Positions 5,661-28,726 of a stretch of 64,000 bases of DNA are shown here, piece after piece (within the stretch, counting starts at the first letter, position 1; every line of letters starts with the position of its first letter). The stretch is from Methylomonas paludis (GTDB lineage Bacteria > Pseudomonadota > Gammaproteobacteria > Methylococcales > Methylomonadaceae), in assembly GCF_018734325.1 (NCBI RefSeq), contig NZ_CP073754.1:3348001-3412000 (forward strand), in the 5' to 3' direction. The notes beneath the pieces were generated by a model, which saw only the letters and a program-made list of their open reading frames with translations, was not told the DNA's origin and ran no database searches. The translations under genes were made by a program, and so were the position numbers.

Positions 5661-6759
5661 CATCACTTCGCCGCGCTGGTTACTGGCTGAACTTAGCTAT
5701 AAATGCCCTTTACAGTGCCCGTATTGCTCGAATCCGCTGGATTACGCCAAATATTCGACAGAGCTTAGCACTGAAGACTGGAAACGGGTTCTGGCCCAAG
5801 CCCGAAAAATGGGCGCAGTACAGCTGGGTTTTTCCGGTGGCGAACCTCTGACGCGTCCGGATTTGGTCGAGCTGGTGGCTTATGCCCGGGAATTGGGTTA
5901 TTACTCGAATTTGATTACCTCCGGTTACGGTCTGAACGAAGCCAAAATTGTGGAATTGAAACAGGCCGGCCTGGATCATATTCAAGTCAGCATCCAGGCC
6001 AGTAGCCAGGAGTTGAATGACCATCTGGCCGGCACTACCAGTTACCAACACAAACAGGAAGTCGCCAGGCTGGTAAAAAAACACGGTTATCCGATGGTGT
6101 TATGTGTGGTGATACACCGGCAAAACATTCACCAAATGCCGGAAATTCTGGCAATGGCGGAAAACCTGGGTGCCGATTATCTGGAACTGGCCAATACCCA
6201 GTATTACGGCTGGGCTCACCTGAATCGTGACGCATTACTGCCTAGCCGGGAGCAATTCAGCAAAGCTGAAAAAATTGCCCAGGACTACAAGGATAAAGTT
6301 GCCGGCAAAATGAAGATTTATTATGTGGTGCCGGATTATTACGAAGACCGACCTAAAGCCTGTATGAATGGTTGGGGCACTACCTTTCTAACCATAGCCC
6401 CGGATGGCACCGCCTTACCCTGCCACTCGGCGCGGGAATTACCTGGACTGGATTGCCCGAATGTTAAGGATTTCAGTATTGAGCAAATCTGGCATGAATC
6501 CAAAACCTTTAATTTCTTTCGCGGTACGGATTGGATGCAGGAGCCTTGCCGGAGTTGTGACGAAAAGCTTAAAGACTTTGGCGGCTGCCGCTGTCAGGCT
6601 TATTTGTTTAATAACGATATATACAGTACTGACCCGGTTTGCAGTAAGTCCCCACAACGCAGCCGGATAGATGCGGCGATTGCTTCTGCAGAAAAAAACG
6701 CCGCTCAAACAGAGCAACCGCTGATTTTCCGCAACAGCAAAAATTCCAAGGCCTTCTAG
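5638..6759 (+). CDS. pqqE: PqqA peptide cyclase PqqE (radical SAM/SPASM)
   Basis: 373 residues. Forms the carbon-carbon bond between Glu and Tyr of PqqA. Cys23, Cys27 and Cys30 ('CPLQCPYC') bind the radical-SAM cluster; 'GFSGGEPLTRPD' is the SAM-binding GGEP motif. The C-terminal SPASM domain is visible through 'CHSARELPGL' and 'CRSCDEKLKDFGGCRCQA'. The start at 5638 lies inside pqqD and is the first Met ahead of the conserved region, 22 residues before the Cys motif. No pqqF or pqqG protease gene follows in this window. Confidence 0.97.
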   Translation: MAGSNNPNITSPRWLLAELSYKCPLQCPYCSNPLDYAKYSTELSTEDWKRVLAQARKMGAVQLGFSGGEPLTRPDLVELVAYARELGYYSNLITSGYGLNEAKIVELKQAGLDHIQVSIQASSQELNDHLAGTTSYQHKQEVARLVKKHGYPMVLCVVIHRQNIHQMPEILAMAENLGADYLELANTQYYGWAHLNRDALLPSREQFSKAEKIAQDYKDKVAGKMKIYYVVPDYYEDRPKACMNGWGTTFLTIAPDGTALPCHSARELPGLDCPNVKDFSIEQIWHESKTFNFFRGTDWMQEPCRSCDEKLKDFGGCRCQAYLFNNDIYSTDPVCSKSPQRSRIDAAIASAEKNAAQTEQPLIFRNSKNSKAF

Positions 6760-25305: not shown

Positions 25306-26061
25306 TTAGAGCTTAGCAGCTGGCACGATAATGCCTTTTTCCGCCATGTCGATCAGGGTTTTACTGCCTTGCTCGGTCAACATGACGCTATCAAACTGGG
25401 GAAATTCCGCTGCTAGTAGTTGCAGGGATTGTGCGCCATTGAGTGCGCCGTGTTCGGCAATTATTTGTAATAGCCGGTAGGTGACGGGACTGGATAGCAA
25501 AAAATGCACTTGATAGTCCTGATCACGGTAGACGATCAGACAGGTGGGTTCGGCAGGCGGCTGTTGCGGCAGGTAGTCCGGGCCAATCCGCTGTACCGGA
25601 TAGCGATAGACCAGCGGCCATGCCACTGGCGACAATGATAATTGCTGATGCGGCAGACCGGCAATCAATGCGGCATCGGCGTAACGGGGTTCGGCCTGGG
25701 CAATAGCCAGAGCCATTTCCACCCATTCGTAATGGGCTAGTTCCAGCAGAAACGGGAAGATGTCGCCATGATCATGCTGCTGCAAATAGGTTAGAAATTC
25801 TTCAGCAATCTCGGAAAAATATGGGGTTTGACAGCGATGGTTTTTAAAAAACGCCTGGCTTAGGGTTTGCCATTGCTGGTCATCACAAATTTTGCGCAGT
25901 ACCGGAAAATTGCTGCTTAAGAATCCGTCTATATTATTGAAAAACAGCTCCCGATAAACCGCCATACGCTCTGGATCGACATCGGCGGGGGCGGGACTGG
26001 CAAGCGGGTCGCGGATATAGGCGGCAAACTCAGCTTGTTTGACTTTAAAATCAACGGCCAT
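25306..26061 (-). CDS. hvfC: HvfC/BufC-type RiPP partner protein (DUF2063)
   Basis: 251 residues. DUF2063 proteins accompany DUF692 (MNIO) enzymes and are thought to bind the precursor leader and help the enzyme. The N-terminal half shows the family pattern 'QAEFAAYIRDP' then 'RMAVYRELFFNNIDGFLSSNFPVLRKI'; 'LELAHYEWVEMAL' follows in the middle. The start codon overlaps the hvfB stop in ATGA, so translation is coupled and the two products probably act as a pair. Last gene of the locus; a REP-like repeat follows. Confidence 0.88.
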   Translation of the reverse strand: MAVDFKVKQAEFAAYIRDPLASPAPADVDPERMAVYRELFFNNIDGFLSSNFPVLRKICDDQQWQTLSQAFFKNHRCQTPYFSEIAEEFLTYLQQHDHGDIFPFLLELAHYEWVEMALAIAQAEPRYADAALIAGLPHQQLSLSPVAWPLVYRYPVQRIGPDYLPQQPPAEPTCLIVYRDQDYQVHFLLSSPVTYRLLQIIAEHGALNGAQSLQLLAAEFPQFDSVMLTEQGSKTLIDMAEKGIIVPAAKL

Positions 26062-26903
26062 CAGGCCACCTGTTGCTGCTGTTGGGCTTGCTGAGTGGCG
26101 GCTATGGTTTCCACTTCGTGCAATAATTCAGGTAAAGCCGGGATGTTAAAGTCCCGCTCCAACAGGGTTGGAAACACACCGTGACGCTGATAGGCCTGAT
26201 CCAGTAAATTCCACACCGGATCAACTACGGGCGCACCATGGGTATCTATCAAAAAGTCGTCGGCCTGGACGAAATGCCCGGCGATATGGGCATAGGCGAT
26301 ACGATCGGTGGGGATGGCCTGTAAAAAGCTTTGCGCATCATAGCCATGATTGATGCTGTTGACATAGATATTGTTAATATCCAGCAACACGTCGCAATCA
26401 GCTTCGGTTAGTACGGCCTGGAAAAACTCCAGCTCGCTCATTTCCTGACCGGGCGCGGCGTAATAGGAGACATTTTCTATGGCGATTCTTTGTTCAAGAA
26501 TATCCTGCACCCGCCGAATCCGGGCGGCAGTGTGACTAACCGCTTCGGCTGTGAACGGGATCGGCATCAGATCATATAAATGGCCTTGCTGACTGCAATA
26601 GCTGAGATGCTCACTGTAAAATTTGATGCCATGTTTCTGGATAAAACGCTTCAGGTCGTGAACGAAGACTTCATCCAGCTCATCAGTGCTGCCTATTGAT
26701 AAGGACAATCCATGACAAACAAATGCGAAACGTTCGGTTAAAGCCCGAAACTGTTTTCCGGCACGTCCGCCGATAGTCATCCAGTTCTCTGGTGCTACTT
26801 CATAAAAATCAATGAGCTGAGGCGGATTTGCCAAAACTTCATCGATAAAGCTACGCCTTAAGCCCAGACCTGCGCCATGAACCAGATGTTTTAGGGTAGC
26901 CAT
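26061..26903 (-). CDS. hvfB: MNIO (DUF692) RiPP-modifying enzyme HvfB/BufB-like
   Basis: 280 residues, TIM-barrel DUF692 protein. MNIOs are multinuclear non-heme iron oxidases (MbnB relatives) that oxidise cysteines of secreted precursor peptides, giving for example oxazolone-thioamides. Probable iron ligands are visible in 'FVCHGLSLS', 'YSEHLSYC', 'AIENVSYY', 'LLDINNIYVN', 'YAHIAGH', 'IDTHGAPV' and 'LLERDFNIP'. It starts 9 nt after the dedA-like gene and overlaps hvfC. The C-terminus is Gln-rich ('QQAQQQQQVA'). Confidence 0.9.
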   Translation of the reverse strand: MATLKHLVHGAGLGLRRSFIDEVLANPPQLIDFYEVAPENWMTIGGRAGKQFRALTERFAFVCHGLSLSIGSTDELDEVFVHDLKRFIQKHGIKFYSEHLSYCSQQGHLYDLMPIPFTAEAVSHTAARIRRVQDILEQRIAIENVSYYAAPGQEMSELEFFQAVLTEADCDVLLDINNIYVNSINHGYDAQSFLQAIPTDRIAYAHIAGHFVQADDFLIDTHGAPVVDPVWNLLDQAYQRHGVFPTLLERDFNIPALPELLHEVETIAATQQAQQQQQVA

Positions 26904-26912
26904 TGGTATATC

Positions 26913-27467
26913 TCACTTTGCCGATTTACGGGTCGAGCGCCAGAACAGAAAAAGACCGACAGCTATCAGCACACCCAGAAAATAAATTTCGTATTTTTTG
27001 GCTTGACCCAACATGGATTCCGCCAAATGACCAAATTGATAACCCAGGAAACCAACGGCAATCGCCCAGACCAATGCACCCAAAAAATTCAGCACAAAAA
27101 ATTTGCCTGGATGCATCCGACTAGCGCCAATGACAAACGGGGTGACATTACGTATCCCGTACAGAAAGCGAAAACCCAGCACCACCTTGATCTGATGCCG
27201 ACGCAGCATATCAAACACTTTATCTGTTTTACTATGCCACAATGGCCGCTTTTCCAGAAAGGCAATGCCTTTGAGCCGTCCCAGATAGAAAAAGGTCTGG
27301 TCGCCGGCAAAAGTACCCAGGAAAGCTGTCACCACCACCCAAGGCAGCTCCAGATAGCCGCGACTGGCCAGAAAGCCGGCGATGACCAGAATAGTCTCGC
27401 CTTCTAGAAAGGTGCCTATAAACAGAGCCCAATAGCCGTAATCAATAACGTATTGCTGTAAATCCAT
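26913..27467 (-). CDS. DedA family membrane protein within the RiPP locus
   Basis: 184 residues with about four to five hydrophobic segments. DedA signatures are the N-terminal 'FIGTFLEGETILVIAG', a short 'LGTFAGDQTFFYLGR', and 'FRFLYGIRNVTPFVIGASRM' with the conserved Arg and Gly-Pro region. DedA proteins act in lipid-carrier recycling and membrane-potential balance, some as C55-P or lipid flippases. It lies 61 nt after the hvfA-like precursor gene and 9 nt before hvfB, same strand, so it belongs to the same transcription unit. DoxX-type HvfD, frequent in such loci, is absent. Confidence 0.88.
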   Translation of the reverse strand: MDLQQYVIDYGYWALFIGTFLEGETILVIAGFLASRGYLELPWVVVTAFLGTFAGDQTFFYLGRLKGIAFLEKRPLWHSKTDKVFDMLRRHQIKVVLGFRFLYGIRNVTPFVIGASRMHPGKFFVLNFLGALVWAIAVGFLGYQFGHLAESMLGQAKKYEIYFLGVLIAVGLFLFWRSTRKSAK

Positions 27468-27528
27468 ATTCAGGAAGTATTATTATTTTAATGGAAATTA
27501 ATGATCGGCTGCGTTTTCAGCATTATGC

Positions 27529-27987
27529 TTAATGGCCTTTCATCATGGCGCCACATGATCCGTCTCCGCTTTTGTCATGCGCGGCTCCGCAACTGCCCTG
27601 GCTGGCTTTTTCCTGGGCCGGTTTATGATCGGCGTGTTCGCCAGCGGGGGTAGCGCTTACCGCCATGCCGCAGGCACCGTCATGATTTTTCATCATGGCG
27701 CCACAACTGTGTTCCATGCCGGGCTTCATTTTGCCGCCGCTCATCATGGCACCGCATTTACCCTCACCGCATGAACCTTGAGTCGCTTTGGTTTGGCCGC
27801 TATTGCCGTTGTTGGAACCGCAACCGCCTTCACTGACTTTATTGTTAAGATCAGCCATCTGCATATAGCCGCTGGAGAGTTCGGTAACGGCAAAAGGATT
27901 GACATCCGCACTGACATCAGCAATAAAACCGGTCAGAACCAGGGTGCCCATAGCGGCGGCAAGCGGGGATTTGGTGAATTTTTTCAT
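27529..27987 (-). CDS. hvfA: HvfA-like secreted Cys-Gly-rich RiPP precursor
   Basis: 152 residues. Sec-type signal peptide (about 1-27, cleavage near 'ADVSA'), then 'DVNPFAVTELSSGYMQMA', the leader motif of the HvfA family. The rest is low complexity with seven cysteines (56, 73, 78, 95, 106, 133, 145), every one followed by Gly, in recurring 'SCGAMMK'-type units; one 'EGKCG' at 75-79 matches the motif modified in Haemophilus HvfA. Many Met and His residues also suggest metal (copper) binding in the periplasm. A good ribosome-binding site (GAGGAAA) precedes the start. First gene of the hvfA-dedA-hvfB-hvfC unit. Confidence 0.9.
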   Translation of the reverse strand: MKKFTKSPLAAAMGTLVLTGFIADVSADVNPFAVTELSSGYMQMADLNNKVSEGGCGSNNGNSGQTKATQGSCGEGKCGAMMSGGKMKPGMEHSCGAMMKNHDGACGMAVSATPAGEHADHKPAQEKASQGSCGAAHDKSGDGSCGAMMKGH

Positions 27988-28012: not shown

Positions 28013-28090
28013 GTTATGCAAAACTGCGTTAAGCTGCCAGTATTTGATAAGCTTTCCCTGCTTAGATTTAGATGTCAGATTATGGCATAT

Positions 28091-28726
28091 TCAGCTTAAA
28101 TTCTTCTCTTTAAATTCACACAAGTCGACTATGCAGCAACCCTGACACAAGGGCTTTCTGGCCATACAAGTATACCGGCCATGTAAAATAAGCAAGTGAT
28201 GCGCCGTTTGCAGATAGGGTTTCGGCACAAATTTTTCCAATTTTTTTTCCACTTCCAGCACATTTTTACCCGGTGCCAAACCGGTGCGGTTGGCCAGGCG
28301 AAAAATATGCGTATCCACAGCAATCGTGGGCTGATCAAAGGCCGTGTTTAAAATCACGTTGGCAGTTTTACGCCCCACTCCCGCTAATGCTTCCAATTCG
28401 GCTCGCTGTTGCGGCACAACACCTTGGTGATGCTGGATTAACTGCTCACAGAGTTTGATGATATTGGCGGCCTTGCTGTTAAACAAGCCAATAGTTTTAA
28501 TATATTCCTTGAGTCCGTCCTCACCCAGTGCCAGGATAGTTTGGGGGGTATTGGCAACAGCAAACAATCTAAGCGTGGCTTTGTTGACACTCTTATCTGT
28601 GGCCTGAGCCGACAATACCACCGCAATTAGAAGCTCGAAAACACTACTATAATTAAGCTCTGTGACAGGATTAGGTATGGCAAGCGCTAAGCGCTGAAAA
28701 ATCTCCAGACGTTTCTGTGCATTCAC
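28091..28726 (-). CDS. nth: Endonuclease III
   Basis: 211 residues. DNA glycosylase/AP lyase for oxidised pyrimidines. The helix-hairpin-helix and catalytic Lys are in 'LAGVGRKTANVILN', the catalytic Asp in 'IAVDTHIFRLANR'. The 4Fe-4S cysteines follow the C-x6-C-x2-C-x5-C spacing ('CMARKPLCQGCCIVDLC'). The thyA gene ends 4 nt downstream of its start region on the same strand. Confidence 0.95.
   Translation of the reverse strand: MNAQKRLEIFQRLALAIPNPVTELNYSSVFELLIAVVLSAQATDKSVNKATLRLFAVANTPQTILALGEDGLKEYIKTIGLFNSKAANIIKLCEQLIQHHQGVVPQQRAELEALAGVGRKTANVILNTAFDQPTIAVDTHIFRLANRTGLAPGKNVLEVEKKLEKFVPKPYLQTAHHLLILHGRYTCMARKPLCQGCCIVDLCEFKEKNLS

Follow-up and report, generated by a model that had tools for sequence, protein, structure and literature searches.

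In the characterised relatives of the hvf-type operons, cysteines of the precursor peptide are oxidised to copper-binding thiooxazoles. The window analysed here, a stretch of 64,000 nucleotides (nt) of Methylomonas paludis (NZ_CP073754.1, positions 3,348,001 to 3,412,000 of the forward strand), carries what is probably, by analogy with these relatives, an hvf-type operon for a modified, putatively copper-binding peptide, in which dedA, the gene of a DedA-family membrane protein, stands between hvfA, the gene of the precursor, and hvfB, that of the maturation enzyme. The Sec-dependent export of HvfA and the chemistry of HvfB and HvfC are treated in passages of PMC13419390, PMC13097082 and PMC12452194, and the structure first called oxazolin is revised to a 5-thiooxazole in a passage of PMC13097082. 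What the original prediction for this locus calls HvfD, the DoxX-like protein encoded in the Haemophilus operon, is named HvfX in PMC13419390, which describes it as uncharacterised.

DedA goes unmentioned in the main text of the papers checked on MNIOs (multinuclear non-haem iron-dependent oxidative enzymes). The open-licence literature of PubMed Central (PMC) contained no paper joining DedA with DUF692, DedA with bufferin, or SNARE associated Golgi with DUF2063; its papers on DedA and methanotrophs concern, by their titles, other subjects, and the joint search for DedA, copper and RiPP (ribosomally synthesised and post-translationally modified peptide) led likewise to papers on other subjects. 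Because the search covered open-licence PMC only, this absence is weak evidence.

Organization of the locus

The original prediction of four minus-strand genes, forming an HvfA/HvfB/HvfC-type MNIO RiPP locus in which dedA separates the precursor gene from that of the enzyme, is borne out both in the positions of the genes and by the family models. The hvfA gene (27529-27987) encodes a Cys-rich precursor of 152 aa and dedA (26913-27467) a VTT/DedA-family membrane protein of 184 aa (Pfam PF09335, VTT_dom, 69.4 bits for a cut-off of 33.9). The hvfB product (26061-26903) is an HvfB-type MNIO (DUF692) RiPP maturase (NCBIfam NF003818, 439.1 bits, cut-off 360; Pfam MbnB_TglH_ChrH, 357.8 bits, cut-off 25), whose closest solved structure by sequence is 3bww (E 4.3e-71), and hvfC (25306-26061) encodes a DUF2063 partner protein of the RRE (RiPP recognition element) type (NCBIfam NF050145, 314.4 bits, cut-off 142; Pfam DUF2063, 96.7 bits, cut-off 27.2; NGO1945_C, 95.2 bits, cut-off 27). 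The gaps of 61 nt between hvfA and dedA and of 9 nt between dedA and hvfB are as predicted; the value of -3 given for hvfB-hvfC was wrong, these two genes overlapping by 1 nt (TGATG). The genome gives one MNIO match, and two VTT matches over the cut-off plus a weak one. As had been predicted, DoxX is absent: none of seven proteins of the locus that were scanned belongs to it, and the sole DoxX match of the genome is some 2.5 Mb distant (840054-840308). At E <= 0.001 the genome also gives no match to PF04018, the flippase family of the DUF368 type.

The N-terminus of HvfA resembles a signal peptide when judged by eye, and its seven cysteines lie in xCG motifs, a single one being the canonical EGKCG and the others GGCG, GSCG, HSCG or GACG. 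The protein exceeds the cut-off of the broader domain model NF050137 (26.1 bits for 19.5) and stays under that of the HvfA equivalog model NF050188 (23.4 bits for 95). Among the Methylomonas HvfA proteins inspected, most have EG[SAM]CG instead of EGKCG, and many cysteines are followed by GAMM or GGMM, which makes of the precursor a Met-rich Cys/Met peptide.

Distribution of the arrangement

The search of 37 Methylomonas genomes, at E <= 1e-30 for dedA and E <= 1e-80 for hvfB, recovered this type of DedA in 33 and hvfB in 36, and comparison of the coordinates of both searches places dedA beside hvfB in 26 of the 37. Such recurrence excludes a chance adjacency of the two genes, and the refuting case that the original prediction itself had named, that of DedA lying beside hvfB in one strain only, is not what is found. 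The insertion of dedA in hvf is a real genus-level variant of the known operon, apparently kept by most Methylomonas, not by all. In seven genomes (handles G063, G115, G141, G153, G154, G157 and G162, the last with a fragment) dedA lies away from hvfB, and at the threshold used it was not found in four (G116, G121, G158 and G159), of which G159 has no hvfB match either. Since dedA occurs elsewhere in the former seven and hvfB occurs without it in G116, G121 and G158, the two are separable.

G152, at a contig end, was excluded from the analysis of the loci, and the fragment of G162 from the dedA trees. In the 25 fully called dedA loci, the gap between hvfA and dedA ranges from 29 to 107 nt and is 29-31 nt in 19, while the distance from dedA to hvfB ranges from -31 to 17 nt and is 3 nt in 17. 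In the 10 of 35 genus hvf loci that are without dedA, hvfA immediately precedes hvfB.

A conservation of the order hvfA-dedA-hvfB-hvfC across Methylococcales, for which the original prediction proposed a search, has to be rejected: the order is seen only in Methylomonas. When 37 hvf loci belonging to the remaining genera of the family were examined, dedA was present in 0, whereas 34 of the stretches had a recognisable hvfA and 30 had nth; the 12 stretches around a DedA of this type in family f4 contain neither hvfB nor hvfC. These 12, with 30 in the genus, make up the 42 of 301 order genomes in which the DedA type was found at E <= 1e-45, and when 151 genomes of 29 genera were searched across the family, the only DedAs met beyond Methylomonas were those of g14 and g22, at about 36-41% identity. 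MNIO genes themselves occur in at least 148 of 151 sampled order genomes, the hvf loci examined being part of the MNIO places found. With profiles built for this study, DedA was detected in 24 of 77 family loci, in 2 of 20 loci of other families of the order and in 1 of the 60 loci drawn from other orders of the class, the last match being partial, at the end of its stretch and on the opposite strand. Of 78 places listed above the cut-off, the class sample comprised 60, with stretches of up to about 4 kb on either side; the other 18 were the window's own, one in G003, which belongs to the same order, some that lie at the end of a contig, and the majority of the weakest.

Several side observations were made on these loci. 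In L200 and L201 (families f7/f8), a different DedA of 26-29% identity (about 507-1340) is encoded three genes downstream, beyond hvfC and behind a class-III aminotransferase gene, and L201 also has a globin gene. A number of Methylomonas loci, e.g. L033 and L038, have a gene with a methyl-accepting chemotaxis protein (MCP) signalling domain at a short distance downstream of hvfC; MCPsignal was matched by 13 of the 55 neighbour proteins scanned, out of 76 listed. The hvfB of one genus locus (L168, G165:C339:1924-2739) contains one in-frame TAA.

Expression of dedA with the hvf genes

Given the tight spacing, we infer that dedA is co-transcribed with the hvf genes. Consensus scanning found no terminator-like site in the hvfA-dedA and dedA-hvfB gaps, and the promoter and terminator scans performed overall at chance level. 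On the minus strand upstream of hvfA, a -10-like stretch, TGAATATGCCATAATC (28078-28093), is a candidate promoter element; its letters recur in similar form in most dedA-carrying genus loci (upstream alignment, by eye), and in the window it has one match at up to 2 mismatches where 0.33 is expected, at least one match arising in 26 of 100 shuffles. Again by eye, the region upstream of hvfA reads TGAATATGC[AC]ATAATC or similar in most dedA-carrying loci and TTTACAATG or similar in many loci without dedA, so that the two kinds of loci may use different promoters.

The stretch GGAAGA or GGAGGA, which in 18 of 25 loci can be seen by eye within dedA or at its end, immediately ahead of the hvfB start, suggests translational coupling of dedA and hvfB; a strict Shine-Dalgarno scan gave such words in only 5 of 25 loci with dedA, against 12 of 47 without. 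These signals bear on the possibility that dedA was trapped by a chance rearrangement and merely uses the hvf promoter, its placement being meaningless. The relocated orthologues in an unrelated PgaB/nhaD/trkH neighbourhood, the four genomes in which the search did not find dedA and the restriction of the association to one genus would all agree with such a neutral insertion, which we nonetheless judge unlikely, since the operon position is kept in 26 of 37 genomes, the 3-nt distance to hvfB in 17 of 25 loci and, by eye if less so by the strict scan, the putative coupling stretch in 18 of 25.

The DoxX slot

The original prediction also held that DedA takes the place of DoxX. By descent this fails: 35 of the 37 sister hvf loci, those of the other family genera, are without both DoxX and DedA, so that dedA did not displace a doxX which the sisters would have retained, and replacement by descent is rejected. 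By position the two do coincide in some loci: among the 41 class loci with doxX there are at least 8 in which doxX lies directly upstream of hvfB, in the slot occupied by dedA in the window (L216, L218, L236, L243, L247, L252, L255 and L263), and in all eight a Cys-rich GxCG open reading frame is located upstream of doxX, directly in five and about 1.7 kb away in three. A DoxX-like membrane gene is a common but not a universal feature of HvfABC loci. The 41 come from the sample of 60 loci of other orders of the class; DoxX was detected in 0 of 20 loci of other families in the order and in 8 of the 77 family loci, 71 of which are hvf-type. Six of the eight are MNIO loci of another type, and L055 and L063 (genus g4), with DoxX upstream of hvfB, are the sole two among the 71.

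This shared slot, together with the near-fixed spacing at which dedA is held between hvfA and hvfB in the 25 analysed loci, would be expected if DedA were a working part of the metallophore system, transporting a helper lipid, the modified peptide or its complex with copper through the inner membrane in the position of DoxX. We consider such a function doubtful, since the Sec-like signal of HvfA would make a special exporter unnecessary, hvf occurs without dedA at the locus in 10 of 35 genus loci and in all 37 family loci of other genera, dedA lies elsewhere in seven genus genomes, and the slot can be empty, as it is in 35 of the 37 sister loci. A direct role of DedA in the transport of the peptide or of copper is thus possible but less likely, given that hvf occurs without dedA and that dedA persists away from hvf. 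A further form of the idea, in which a DedA lipid transporter would have been recruited in Methylomonas as the dedicated membrane partner of an MNIO metallophore operon in the DoxX slot and would, at the inner membrane, couple lipid-carrier recycling or metallopeptide handling to copper buffering, appears to us improbable.

History of dedA and its relocated copies

In a tree of nth, hvfB and hvfC (52 rows), the presence of dedA at hvf requires one change. In the dedA tree the genus copies group as a single clade (100/97), and nested among its hvf copies is another single clade (95/93) made up of the relocated ones; the nesting was repeated in a second tree, and a constraint to monophyly of the hvf copies was rejected by the approximately unbiased test (p-AU 0.019). 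This pattern fits a dedA gained early in the genus, inserted into hvf once and moved out in one later event. The gene may have been acquired from an f4-like donor, or may have persisted in this genus alone. The nth gene, which encodes endonuclease III in the window (28091-28726, minus strand; NCBIfam TIGR01083, 270.9 bits, cut-off 211.7), is a conserved upstream neighbour, the minus-strand order being nth, hvfA, dedA, hvfB, hvfC, and we do not claim that it belongs to the pathway. Between the window and L166 (G167), DedA is 89-90% identical, Nth 73% and HvfC 54%, and dedA may have been recombined or exchanged between these two lineages.

Near the six intact relocated copies are found a PgaB-like gene (six), trkH (five), nhaD (four) and motAB (four). 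In 10 stretches that surround nhaD orthologues in genomes having no relocated copy, nhaD stands without dedA, and trkH is present in eight. The fragment of G162, in L114 at about 5914-6330, corresponds to residues 86-181 of the query and lies away from hvf.

The DedA protein

Gly55, Asp56, Arg100 and Arg106 are invariant among 44 aligned DedA sequences, and Glu22 and Glu24 across the 31 genus copies. The AlphaFold2 model of the window protein (mean predicted local distance difference test score, pLDDT, 80.5) interrupts its helices at both tips, at residues 22-23 and at 103-107. Arg100 and Arg106 form the Arg pair at the tip of the second re-entrant helix and are equated with R130 and R136 of YghB by spacing, YghB itself being unaligned; Glu24, together with Glu22, would lie close to where Asp51 of YghB probably falls in the first re-entrant helix, again with YghB unaligned. 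The Arg pair is linked to phosphate-lipid binding in COG0586 flippases in PMC10127716, and Arg100, Arg106 and Glu24 match the residue pattern which that paper gives for the undecaprenyl-phosphate flippases of this group; an UptA model matches DedA at E 7.9e-13. On the strength of the Arg pair, the acidic residues of the first tip and the helix breaks at both tips, the protein is most likely a lipid-carrier (undecaprenyl-phosphate) flippase or a membrane-homeostasis protein. A sequence search of the PDB gave a best E of only 0.43.

The setting of the relocated copies raises the related possibility that the function of DedA lies in the balance of pH, Na+ or divalent cations, as is reported of proteins of the YqjA/YghB type, in connection with copper stress, which would overlap with envelope upkeep and differ from it in substrate. 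Passages of PMC9876793 report that the need for a C55-P translocase varies with pH and Na+ in Vibrio, and passages of PMC10846249 that the loss of a Klebsiella DedA disturbs divalent cations and membrane potential; both suit the nhaD/trkH setting of most relocated copies, four of the six intact ones lying near NhaD and five near TrkH. We regard this as a tentative alternative of limited probability, since the neighbour evidence comes from apparently one relocation event and the residue pattern fits the flipping of lipid phosphates equally well. A role of DedA in self-immunity within an antibiotic cluster, as PMC10127716 suggests for other biosynthetic gene clusters, was also considered; nothing at the locus indicates an antibiotic.

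Proposed model

The model we favour, with slightly better than even confidence, is that of an hvf metallophore operon that has recruited DedA, an accessory flippase-like protein co-expressed for the upkeep of the envelope. HvfA would be synthesised in the cytosol, where HvfB and HvfC would oxidise its cysteine residues, and the modified peptide would exit by Sec and bind copper in the periplasm, as would be expected from knowledge of the family. In an early Methylomonas, dedA would have been inserted precisely between hvfA and hvfB and subsequently coupled to both. DedA would act as a proton-driven flippase of a phosphate-headed lipid, e.g. undecaprenyl phosphate, or as a keeper of membrane and ion balance, and would gain from being switched on jointly with the copper peptide; we infer both this lipid substrate and the benefit under copper stress. 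Its role would probably be accessory and not a step in the making of the peptide. One subclade would later have shifted dedA to the PgaB/nhaD/trkH region while retaining hvf.

Several observations weigh against this model. The copper binding of HvfA in Methylomonas is putative, by analogy with the characterised peptides, and the number of cysteines in HvfA does not follow dedA, with a median of 8 both with it (n=25) and without it (n=10). G116, G121 and G158 have hvfB and lack this DedA, and the fragment of G162 is found in a different neighbourhood, beside metal-efflux RND-like genes (by eye). The support for the hvf-linked clade in the tree of nth, hvfB and hvfC is only 18, and G167 is a long branch. 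As regards the protein, DedA stays under the UptA equivalog cut-offs (48.9 of 250 bits); Foldseek found no match of the AlphaFold2 model among solved structures at E <= 0.001; and a 10-residue gap relative to longer DedAs apparently leaves the Glu39 segment of the first re-entrant helix of YghB without a counterpart. With this segment apparently absent and the UptA score below the cut-offs, the flippase assignment is a putative one, made by residue pattern.

On the question of why a small membrane protein belongs to such operons, Methylomonas provides a natural experiment in which the same peptide operon is found with dedA inside, with dedA elsewhere or with none. Since the genus has cultured strains together with these three states, the question of the membrane partner is genetically testable.

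Comparison with known systems

Like the COG0586 DedAs (YqjA, YghB and UptA), the window protein has two arginines paired in the second re-entrant helix and, putatively, a corresponding acidic residue in the first; unlike them, it has a shortened first re-entrant region with no clear counterpart of Glu39, and it does not reach the NCBIfam equivalog cut-offs. The locus shares the MNIO enzyme superfamily with the methanobactin (mbn) clusters of methanotrophs, to which it was not assigned: the MbnB model TIGR04159 reaches only 50.6 of 325 bits, and the partner is HvfC-type, not MbnC. The bufferin/gig (buf) operons, which often include DoxX, have in common with it an MNIO, a DUF2063 partner and a Cys-rich precursor, putatively secreted in the window; membership was rejected here too, the window MNIO staying under the BufB cut-off (NF050167, 277.7 of 310 bits), and the precursor is not DUF2282, since it has no Pfam match. 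With the oxazolin (now 5-thiooxazole) hvf operon of Haemophilus influenzae and with the EGKCG-type (fontiphorin) clusters, the locus shares a Cys-rich, putatively secreted precursor that is probably of the HvfA type, the HvfB MNIO and the HvfC DUF2063/RRE partner; unlike them, it has six of the seven precursor cysteines outside the EGKCG motif, is without the DoxX-like HvfX and carries dedA ahead of the enzyme gene, behind that of the precursor.

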